In this document: positions 28,619 through 36,562 of the stretch, in pieces
Position numbering within the stretch: the stretch's first letter is position 1
Layout of the letters: each line of letters opens with the position of its first letter
Assembly (NCBI RefSeq): GCF_016743215.1
Contig: NZ_VRZC01000020.1
Coordinates: 1-36,562 of the forward strand
Length of the DNA: 36,562 bases
Direction: 5' to 3'
Origin: Geminocystis sp. GBBB08
Lineage (GTDB): Bacteria; Cyanobacteriota; Cyanobacteriia; Cyanobacteriales; Cyanobacteriaceae
The notes under the pieces: model-generated
Databases searched by the model: none
Told to the model about the DNA's origin: nothing
Seen by the model: the letters and a program-made list of their open reading frames with translations, nothing else
Program-made: the position numbers and the translations under genes

Positions 28619-31600
28619 ATGTATATTAAACAAGCCTTAAATTCTGCTTTTAGAAAAATACCCATTGCTAGGGAAGATATTAATAAATTTAAAGAAAATT
28701 TAGAAAAATTAATTTCTATAACCAATAATAAAATTAACGAATCGGAAGAATATCATAAAAATAATTTACGAGATTTTTTTAATCAAACTTATTATCATCC
28801 CCTTCATTATCTCAATACTAAAAATAAAAATGATTTAGTCATTCATCATGGCAATAAAAACAGTCAAATCGGCGTAATTATCGAGACAAAAAAACCAGCA
28901 AATAAAACCGAAATGGTTAGTCTTGATAAACTTAACGTCAAATCATTACAGCAGTTACTCTTTTATTATTTACAAGAAAGAATTAACGATAATAACATCA
29001 ACTTAAAACATTTAATCATCACTGATATTTATAACTGGTTTATCTTTGATGCTAATTTATTTGAAAGATTATTTTACCAAAATAAAGCCTTAATTAAAGA
29101 CTTTCAAGACTTTCAAGCAGGAAGATTAACTAGCAATAAACAAGATTTTTTTTATCAAGAAATTGCTAGTAAATATATCACTGAGAAACAGCATGAATTA
29201 AGAGAAAACTTTACTTATTTTAACCTCAAAGACTATCAAAATATATCCGAAGATAAACAGTTAATACCTCTCTATAAAATTCTATCTCCCGAACATTTAT
29301 TAAAACTACCTTTTGCCAACGATAGCAATAGTTTAGATCAAGATTTTTATAGGGAATTACTATATATCATTGGTTTAACAGAAGTCAAAGAAAAAAGTAA
29401 AAAATTAATTCAGCGCCTTTGTCAAGACAATCGAAATCAGGGATCATTATTAGAAAATGTCATCTATCATTTAGATACTTATAATAAACTCAATAATCTA
29501 TCTAATCTTGAGGAATTAGGAGAAAATTATCAAGAACAATTATTTAAAGTTGCCTTAGAATTAGTTATTACTTGGATTAACCGTATTTTATTTTTAAAAC
29601 TCCTAGAGGCACAACTTATTAACTATAACAATGGTGATAAAAGTTATAGTTTTCTTCACAGTGAAACAATTACTAATTTTAATGACTTAGATACCCTCTT
29701 CTTTCAAGTATTAGCGAAAAATATTGATGAGAGAAATCCAGATATTCAAGCTAAATTTAATTATATTCCTTATCTTAACAGTGGTTTATTTGAGGTAACA
29801 GAATTAGAAAATAAAACCCTCTTAATTGCCAACTTAAATAATGATTATCAACTACTCTTATTTAAGCATACTGTTTTAAAAAATAGTCAAGGGAATAGAA
29901 AAACAGGAGAGTTAAACACTTTAACTTATTTATTCGAGTTTTTATCAGCTTATAACTTCAGCAGTGAAGGAAAAGAAGAAATCCAAGAGGAAAGAAAAAG
30001 CTTAATTAATGCTTCGGTTTTGGGGTTAATTTTTGAGAAGATTAACGGTTATCAAGATGGTTCCTTTTTTACTCCCGGTTTTATTACTATGTATATGTGT
30101 CGGGAAACCGTTTCTAAAGCAGTTATCACAAAATTTAATCAGGTTAAAAGTTGGCATTGTCAAAATATTGACGAGTTAAAAGAATTAATTGAATATCAAA
30201 ATCTGGAGGCAAGAAATGAAGCTAATTCTATCATTAATAGTATCACCATTTGCGATCCTGCGGTGGGTTCTGGTCATTTTTTAGTATCAGCTTTAAATGA
30301 AATTATCGCTTTAAAAAGTAGGTTAAATATTTGGCAAGATAGACAAGGAAAACGGATTAAGGAATATTCGATCGAGGTTGAAAATGATGAGTTAATAATT
30401 AAGGATGAAGATGGAGAATTATATAACTATAAACCGGATTTTGCCAATAGTCAACGCATCCAAGAAAGTTTATTTCATGAAAAGAAAACTATCATTGAAA
30501 ATTGCTTATTTGGAGTGGATATTAACATTAATTCTGTAAAAATTTGTCGGTTAAGGTTATGGATTGAGTTGCTCAAAAACGCTTATTATCATGAAAATGA
30601 TCTTCCTAAATCCCCCTTAGAAATGGGTACTTTCCATAATAATACTCACACCTTACCAAGGGGGGCGGTTAAATCCACCTTACCAAGCAGAGCTAGAGGC
30701 GATCGCACCCTTGAAACTTTACCAAATATTGATATTAATATTAAGTGCGGAAACTCTTTAATTAGTCGCTTTGATTTAAAATCAGATTTAAAATTAGCCC
30801 TCAAAAAACATAATTTAACGATTAAAGATTATCAACAGGCAATCAAGACTTATCATAATCCTCAAAACAGACAAGAAAAACAGGAAGTTATCACTTTAAT
30901 TAAGCAAATAAAAGATAATTTTACTACAGTTATGACGGGAAATGATCCTCTACAACAAGAATTAAGGAAAAAGGAAAATGAGTTATATAGTTTACAAAAT
31001 CAACAATCTTTATTTAAAGAATCCGGTAAGGAGAAAAAAGACAGAGAAAAGAAAGAAAAAAAGTTAGAAAAACAAATTAATTTATTAATTCAAGAGATAG
31101 ACGATAAACAAAATCATGCTATCTATCGTCATGGTTTTGAGTGGCGTTTTGAGTTTCCCGAAGTGTTAAATCAGAATGGTGACTTTATCGGTTTTGATCT
31201 TATTATCGGTAATCCTCCTTATGGAGTCAAATTAACACAAAATCAACAAGAAATTCTCAATGAAATTTATGGCTATGGCACAACAGAAACAGCAATTTTA
31301 TTTATCAAAAAAGGTTATGAAATGTTAAATAAATGTGGTATTCAATCTTATATTATCCCTAAATCATTTACCTTTGCCTCTAACTATCAAAAAATTAGAG
31401 AAGATACCATTAATGACTTAACAAAAATTGTCGATTGTGGCAAGGTTTGGCAAGATGTAAAATTAGAAGTTTGTATTTTTCAATTAATAAGAAATTCAAC
31501 AAGTAAAAATTATCAATCTTTAAAACTTTTTGGTGAAGATATTAGATATTTAACTACTTTAGATAAAGAATTATTTAAGCAATTTGGCTTTATTATTAAT

Positions 31601-35836: not shown

Positions 35837-35992
35837 TATAGCAATCCTAAATGATTCGTGGCAAAATAACCATAGCAAATTTGAAGGCAGAGGGTAGGTA
35901 ACAAGGGGCTTAAGCTCCTTGCCTTGTTAGATAATAGGGAAGAATTTGTTTTCTATCTTTAGAGATTTCACAACAGATTTAGGACTGCTATA
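35837..35992. mobile_element. MITE-like element, 156 bp
   Basis: Terminal inverted repeats TATAGCAATCCTAAAT (35837-35852) and ATTTAGGACTGCTATA (35977-35992) match at 15 of 16 positions; the left end continues like the dispersed repeats at 13940 and 16171. Inside, 35897-35924 is a palindromic GGTAAC...CTTAAGC...TTGCCT segment repeated within the adjacent gene at 36315-36342 (26 of 28 bases identical). No transposase is encoded, so it would need to be mobilised in trans. Confidence 0.6.
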
Positions 35993-35999
35993 TTTAGTT

Positions 36000-36562
36000 T
36001 TATAAATTCATTTGGTTAATAATTTTCATCGTTTCAATACTAACTGTAGTAACTCTGGTTAATAAGTCAATTACTTGCTCTTTATAGTCAGCAAAACGAT
36101 AATTATTGAACTTTTCTGCTATGGTTTTATCTTTAGGTTTTTTTTCTTTATATTGGTCTAATATCCATTCTAAGGCACTACGATTACCTAATTTATATTC
36201 CCATGCCAAAGGCGGTATATTTTCTAAAATTGTTATCTCATCAATAATAATTTTACCGTTAATTTTATCAGCTTTTAACTTAACTTTCGGTAAGGGTATG
36301 GGTTTTCCAGAGTTGGTAACAATGGGCTTAAGCCCCTTGCCTGAAGTATCTGAGTTTAGGGTATCTTGAGAATCAATTAAATTTCTGAGAGTGTTTAGTA
36401 TAGTGGGTAAATCTTGACTAAAAGTATTAATTGCTTGACGAAAGTCTTTTATTTCAGCCCTTTCATAGTCTAAAAACTGATTTATTAATTTGTCTAATTC
36501 ATCGTCATTTTCCATGTCAATCCGTAAAGATTCATCTCCATTTTGAATTAATACGGCTGTTT
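36000..36562 (-). CDS. Type ISP restriction enzyme, C-terminal part (partial)
   Basis: The frame is open to the right edge of the window, so this is a fragment. From an internal ATG at 36515 there are 171 residues. The end, PLAWEYKLGNRSALEWILDQY and DLLTRVTTVSIETMKIINQM, is the C-terminal specificity-domain pattern of single-chain type ISP restriction-modification enzymes (LlaGI/LlaBIII group), preceded by GKIIIDEITILENIP. Upstream it continues TAVLIQNGDESLRID without a stop, consistent with a much longer helicase-methyltransferase protein outside the window. Residues about 56-72 (SGKGLKPIVTNSGK) are encoded by a palindromic repeat also found at 35897. Confidence 0.65.
   Translation of the reverse strand, partial: TAVLIQNGDESLRIDMENDDELDKLINQFLDYERAEIKDFRQAINTFSQDLPTILNTLRNLIDSQDTLNSDTSGKGLKPIVTNSGKPIPLPKVKLKADKINGKIIIDEITILENIPPLAWEYKLGNRSALEWILDQYKEKKPKDKTIAEKFNNYRFADYKEQVIDLLTRVTTVSIETMKIINQMNL

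Follow-up and report, generated by a model that had tools for sequence, protein, structure and literature searches.

A restriction gene without its middle at the contig end

The window, i.e. the whole stretch of DNA analysed, is an entire contig (G000:C122, 36562 bases) of a 4.10-Mb genome in 325 contigs, and looks cyanobacterial, with eight copies of the HIP1 octamer GCGATCGC, which is linked with cyanobacteria, against 0.03 expected. Its right end is occupied by P0001, an open frame running on the minus strand from 36560, at the contig end, to a stop codon at 36000-36002, its 5' end lying off the contig (Table 1). Contrary to the sequence-only reading of this DNA, in which a C-terminal specificity domain continued past the window, the gene ends within it and it is the nuclease side that runs off the contig. 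The best PADLOC match of P0001 was REase_MTase_IIG (8.4e-39). The type ISP specificity domain named in that reading was indeed recovered by Pfam (PF18135, Type_ISP_C, E 9.3e-18), but only as profile positions 267-342 of 342, corresponding to aa 91-166 (about 36063-36290). By profile search and paralogue comparison the coupler, the methyltransferase and all but the end of the recognition domain are absent from the middle of P0001, so that what had been described as a third restriction gene survives as a remnant rather than as an intact gene. No member of the family lay within about 1.5 kb of ilvC in any of six relatives; the P0001 copy is therefore lineage-specific or has been lost elsewhere, and a conserved locus linked to ilvC was rejected. 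Two large type IIG-like enzymes of a different kind are encoded elsewhere in the window (P0002, 1552-5328, and P0003, 28619-32269, with DUF7149, DUF7814 and Eco57I); P0003 has a 34-aa insert (KSPLEMGTFHNNTHTLPRGAVKSTLPSRARGDRT, 30608-30709, plus strand) that P0002 does not have; a single further place in the genome resembles the first 59 nt of this insert, at 80% identity.

Table 1 Coordinates of the window features, of the family's interdomain slots and of the transposase-bearing homologue.
Feature	Position	Strand	Remarks
P0001, remnant of a putative DrdV-like type IIG restriction-modification gene	36000..36562	-	186-aa open frame
P0001 N-terminal piece: end of nuclease region and slot A linker with element	36299..36560	-	the 47-48 nt adjoining the junction are 98% identical to the paralogues C298 and C311
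P0001 C-terminal piece: final ~95 residues	36003..36286	-	Pfam Type_ISP_C match
Deletion junction in P0001	36287..36298	-	17-28 nt past the element, where a repeat of its right half is interrupted
Element, coding copy in slot A, 28 nt	36315..36342	.	minus-strand reading frame, part of SGKGLKPIVTNSGK
Element, second copy, intergenic after ilvC	35897..35924	.	26/28 identical to the coding copy; 8-bp stem, 4-nt loop
Slot A	between nuclease and coupler		16 aa in 38/41 named homologues
Slot B	just before methyltransferase motif I		11 aa in 38/41 named homologues and 16/18 others
Slot C	before IEKEDIFYYV		13 aa in 22/41 named homologues, up to 170 aa in the rest; up to 263 aa among 18 others
Slot D	before KLKADK, conserved C-terminal tail		mostly 15-21 aa, maximum 111
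L077, type IIG gene with Y1/REP-type transposase domain	G011:C1, L077 1384-5181	-	1265 aa, one frame

The start of P0001 is off the contig; the relatives scanned for a helicase are about 1000 aa or longer. Pfam found the coupler, N6 methyltransferase and Type_ISP_C domains in L067 (from G001, 1031 aa) and the same set in L077, L075 and the incomplete paralogue C298, with no helicase match in any of these four. L067 aligned end to end with the 1029-aa chain of PDB 7lo5 (residues 1-1017 to 1-1023), which, together with 7lvv, we take to be DrdV; the type ISP enzymes LlaGI and LlaBIII (5ffj, 4xqk) aligned to it only from aa 197. Published work presents DrdV as a type IIG enzyme that combines an N-terminal nuclease, a methyltransferase and a C-terminal recognition domain in one chain (PMC10201449), and type ISP enzymes are defined by a helicase-like SF2 ATPase within the chain (PMC4666363). 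The missing helicase and the end-to-end alignment of L067 thus make the relatives type IIG-like, and strict type ISP membership, proposed for this gene beforehand, was rejected on the missing helicase in the four relatives and the late start of the LlaGI and LlaBIII alignments. As far as the contig extends there is neither a helicase nor a methyltransferase domain upstream, an absence that speaks against that proposal; the upstream part of the paralogues is the nuclease, and their methyltransferase comes after the slot A repeat. The four relatives scanned have the coupler, methyltransferase and recognition domain together, P0001 does not, and likewise the single nuclease-coupler-methyltransferase-recognition chain of about 1030 aa is that of L067 and not of P0001. 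Judged by these comparisons, the family of P0001 is DrdV-like type IIG, with a C-terminal domain in common with type ISP enzymes, and P0001 is a descendant of it rather than an intact member.

A dispersed palindrome in the interdomain joints

The positions of the two window copies of the palindrome and their 26/28 identity were reproduced, as was the earlier observation that the repeat occurs once in coding and once in non-coding DNA, 0.4 kb apart. The coding copy is read within SGKGLKPIVTNSGK, aa 73-86 of P0001 (36303-36344, minus strand). Folded as single-stranded DNA, the window copies form a stem of 8 bp, or of 4+4 bp, with a 4-nt loop. The 27-nt consensus GGTAACAAGGGGCTTAAGCCCCTTGCC matched the window twice at ≤3 mismatches, against 0.00 matches expected from shuffled sequence, and the genome-wide search suggested in the sequence-only reading revealed a dispersed family: at ≤2 mismatches the core had 51 forward and 52 reverse matches in its own genome (each site counting twice because of the palindrome) and none with the reversed control. 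Of 60 genomes searched at ≤3 mismatches, 12 contained the 27-mer and none its reversed control; the 12 are 10 of the 15 genomes of the same family, its own included, and 2 of the 45 others. That linker codons mimic the palindrome by chance, as short low-complexity linkers in general can, is practically excluded by the shuffle expectation and these reversed controls.

At least 86 sites were identified in the own-genome loci examined, mostly centred on CTTAAG or TTTAAA (one of the 86, C140:801, being at a locus edge and without context). Eleven were inside ORFs of ≥100 aa, and eight of these in the restriction family (C105, C122, two in C155, three in C298, and C311), with a decayed remnant at C155:1612 as a ninth copy in the family. 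This family makes up about 0.2% of the genome and would be expected to contain 0.18 sites. Since the slots have been duplicated along with the genes, the eight coding copies are not independent, and a Poisson estimate based on three independent slots, with gene lengths entered by hand, gave P = 9e-4. The three other coding copies fall in one RsmA-like and two histidine-kinase-like proteins, named by reading their sequences and not by family search. In the former (G000:C17:4512) the element forms the final residues (TRGLSPLPNH), 9 nt from the gene's end; in the latter two (G000:C259:69582 and G000:C271:8143) it is in frame in the ATPase part, just before D(Y/T)GxGI (GNGLKPLV and NKGLKPLA). Among the sites of G001, G006 and G011 (6/6, 22/25 listed and 18/18 covered, respectively), 5 of 50 lay in ORFs of ≥100 aa, two of them in the G011 restriction gene. 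As an imperfect palindrome of 20-40 bp with many dispersed copies the element resembles REP sequences; their terminal GTAG or CGTC tag is missing, GTAG being found within 9 nt of only 3 of the 86 own-genome sites (the intergenic window copy included) and CGTC at none, so that it is not a typical tagged REP.

We aligned 18 relatives and then a larger set of 59 proteins, to which named genomes contributed 41 (out of 68 loci, 27 being without a 900-aa frame). The 18 others comprise C298 and C155, both incomplete and from the own genome, and those of the 20 regions retrieved that remained after L068 (decayed), L078 and L079 (frames broken) and L080 (start misaligned) had been set aside. Large insertions in the family fall at four places, slots A to D (Table 1), of which A and B are nearly constant outside this group, and C and D are more variable, also in distant homologues. 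Slot A was visible in 17 of the 18 others, with 16 aa in 5 and 22-129 aa in 12 (the value of 0 for C155 reflecting its missing start only), and measured 45 aa in C298; the only slot B linkers of 16 aa among the 18 were those of the two own-genome copies. The own-genome element occupies slots A, B and D, all three in C298, where the copies share one frame, and relative to 7lo5 slot B of this paralogue contains an additional TRGLS and its slot C a longer insert. An exact overlap of 18 nt connects the start of C298 with the end of C293, the contig bearing the nuclease side, suggesting that an intact-looking paralogue with three element copies is probably present in the same genome. Of the loci of the 20 relatives, L068 (G001) and L077 (G011) alone contained the element.

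An insert common to all homologues, which would have spoken against an inserted repeat, was rejected, since slots A and B are without insertion in 38 of the 41 named homologues. These in-frame copies in conserved proteins whose homologues are without them correspond to what defines the protein-coding palindromes of Rickettsia. This distribution also bears on whether the repeat was born inside the restriction gene and later spread to intergenic sites. The eight of eleven coding copies in the restriction family are what such an origin would produce; against it, the same places are free of the insert in the majority of named homologues as well as in the relative of solved structure (1029 aa), and in the three other genomes sites in ORFs are as rare as 5 in 50, which makes it highly improbable.

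By similarity search, other lineages carry other dispersed repeats in the same slots. The slot A insert of L081 (G020) had 17 matches in that genome at E 0.001, with some sites counted on both strands; slot A of two further family genes (C98 and C113) is among them. The slot A insert of L070 (G002) had 60 matches in its genome, some overlapping, including inverted copies at its own slot D and at slots A and D of a second gene. A DUF559-type segment, accompanied by SPSPAGEGLGVR-like repeat peptides, is inserted in slot C of L075 (1127-4966, plus strand) and of L076, from G006 and G009 respectively, the DUF559 assignment being a Pfam match in L075 and by alignment in L076. A Thiotrichales and a Chitinophagales record contain repeated conserved C-terminal tails downstream of a long family gene (L197 5735-5980 and 9306-9410; L215 3666-7785), which could be remnants or a cassette array.

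Deletion junctions and a transposase in a homologous gene

Residues 36-101 of P0001 match the start, and residues 79-185 the end, of the 926-aa frame of C298. At the DNA level, the first 48 nt of the junction query were 98% identical to slot A of C298 and C311, a similarity that ends at 36298, and from nt 54-59 onward the query matched the tails of C298, C105 and C155 with 76-84% identity, starting between 36292 and 36287. These two limits place the breakpoint at 36287-36298, and what is missing is equivalent to positions 163 to 2499 of C298, about 2.3 kb. It is not the element core that is broken, but a copy of the element's right half that is complete in C298 and C311 and cut at CCCAT in P0001; 5-10 nt at the junction match neither parent.

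Loss of the middle is, to judge from these comparisons, recurrent in the family. In the decayed L068 of G001, slot B is joined to slot D with the crossing point inside the element (CATTTTACAAGAGGCTTAAGCCCATTG then CCTGA). Other internal deletions (C105, L217 and G020:C92) have no element at the join, and the left remnant in C155 keeps its slot A element with the join elsewhere. L217 (4769-5297) and G020:C92 (L278 2005-2856) are short nuclease-plus-tail genes without the middle, in distant bacteria. Similar copies show decay: stop codons in G001, a TAG in G020:C92, a stop and a frame change between the parts in L217, and a split over two frames in C105. The element would thus account cleanly for the G001 deletion, probably for the window deletion, and not visibly for the others.

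In L077, the G011 homologue, slot C holds an in-frame Y1_Tnp domain with an HVH motif, which matched the NCBIfam REP-associated tyrosine transposase model with E 1.6e-15 and 57.3 bits, below the curated cut-off of 80 bits. Element copies flank the domain (G011:C1:3827656 and 3827074), one identical to the 27-mer and one with 2 mismatches, and both are read in frame as TRGLSPLP; the same protein also contains a tandem SPLPKSEE array. Relatives of this transposase in the 120 genomes searched were remote (≤35% identity), none being found in the own genome at E 0.001. The own genome had 3 Y1_Tnp matches, two of them fragments and none beside the element. Fourteen other Y1 loci were drawn from the 33 Y1 matches other than the G011 gene; 13 of these stretches were without the element, and in L177 a copy lies at a distance of about 2 kb. 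Among 50 further search loci the element was present at the G011 gene itself and at no other. A constant association of the element with REP-type transposases was rejected on these two sets of loci; L077 would link the two at a single locus.

Origin of the remnant and comparison with known systems

We consider P0001 to be a type IIG gene reduced to an inactive relic, in which a REP-like element entered the interdomain joints and then assisted the loss of the middle, a reading to which we give a probability of about 75%. It draws on the element family, its in-frame copies in three slots, the insert-free homologues and the deletion architecture, together with the G001 deletion whose junction lies in the element and the element-flanked REP-type transposase in the homologous G011 gene, all of them visible in the sequences themselves. 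The 27-28-nt imperfect palindrome would be a dispersed element of REP or RPE (Rickettsia palindromic element) type, possibly moved by a Y1/HUH transposase of the REP type, that inserted in frame at joints A, B and D of the DrdV-like paralogues, where the peptides it encodes (GKGLKPIVT or TRGLSPLP) were presumably tolerated. Its copies would then provide short homologies within one gene, through which internal segments can be lost by recombination or replication slippage. In P0001, slot A with its element would have been joined in this way to slot D and the C-terminal tail, about 2.3 kb being lost with the frame kept, and we infer that element homology caused this deletion. As it has neither coupler nor methyltransferase, nor most of the recognition domain, the product is most likely inactive.

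A broader version, in our view unlikely, is that the joints serve as landing and recombination sites at which REP-like and other palindromic repeats, inserted in frame, bring in whole domains, such as the G011 transposase or the DUF559 segments of G006 and G009, and afterwards drive the loss of domains and their exchange between paralogues, with gutted products that might act in trans on intact copies; if true, the repeat family would be a domain-shuffling system for restriction enzymes. We likewise doubt that P0001 is a functional mini-protein under selection, made of a nuclease part and a tail and working with the intact paralogues in trans or interfering with them. Its frame is open across the junction, the nuclease-plus-tail architecture recurs in L217, G020:C92 and C105, and the published account of DrdV includes a tetramer with trans-acting nuclease domains (PMC10201449); against this, the comparable copies (G001, G020:C92, L217 and C105) are decayed, and the six relatives have no family member near ilvC.

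We judge it improbable that the gutted gene does not exist and is an assembly artefact, two paralogues having been misjoined at a short repeat. The assembly does invite the suspicion, since five of its contigs (C122, C293, C298, C311 and C155) end inside this gene family and P0001 itself runs off one of them. Of 325 loci, however, just 3 contained the 30-nt junction string, each of them part of the contig that forms the window, and this confinement speaks against a mere joining error. Nowhere else in the genome was there a match spanning the junction. The C-terminal piece is moreover a distinct copy, with 76-84% DNA identity to its paralogues, and an analogous deletion is found in the relative G001, assembled in six contigs. 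Beyond the relic reading of P0001 itself, the analysis carries a warning for annotation: ORFs labelled as type ISP C-terminal beside such repeats may be gutted relics.

In the top-listed titles and abstracts of the openly licensed PMC literature we found no direct report of coding palindromes in cyanobacteria or of repeats in restriction genes; nor did we find, in the same literature, a description of coding copies that cluster at the joints of a single restriction family, of the in-frame transposase, or of deletions with the element at the junction. Elhai is said to have written a paper on very small cyanobacterial repeats. Passages of an article on restriction systems in bloom cyanobacteria contain nothing on such inserts (PMC8262939).

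The relatives of P0001 share with LlaGI and LlaBIII the coupler, methyltransferase and C-terminal specificity domains, but differ from these type ISP enzymes in having no detected helicase-like ATPase and in being homologous to them only from aa 197 of L067. With DrdV they share, in the case of L067, a helicase-less single chain that aligns end to end; P0001 departs from this plan by its missing domains, and its paralogues by their repeat-coded joint inserts.

As regards the element, REP sequences are associated with REP-associated tyrosine transposases (PMC6006769, PMC3733652), and REP insertions inside tnpAREP genes have already been reported (PMC6006769, section 23). Consistently with a REP, the element is a 20-40 bp imperfect palindrome with tens of copies, mostly outside ORFs of ≥100 aa; contrary to REPs, it is mostly without GTAG or CGTC. 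In G011 it flanks a REP-type transposase, a link seen at this one locus, and the own genome has no relative of that transposase. Two deletions end in or near element copies, and whether dispersed repeats act both as tolerated hinges and as breakpoints in the remodelling of multidomain defence enzymes thereby becomes testable.

Protein-coding palindromes are best known from Rickettsia. The palindromic elements found there in frame within ORFs were described by Ogata and Claverie (cited in PMC3733652), and the present element is likened to them, by its behaviour and not by sequence comparison, as a short palindromic repeat found both in frame in ORFs and between genes. It differs from them in its host group and in the clustering of its coding copies at the joints of a single restriction family, where they coincide with domain deletions. 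Rickettsia-like behaviour is thus seen here in what looks like a cyanobacterial family, most coding copies falling in the linkers of that one group of restriction enzymes.
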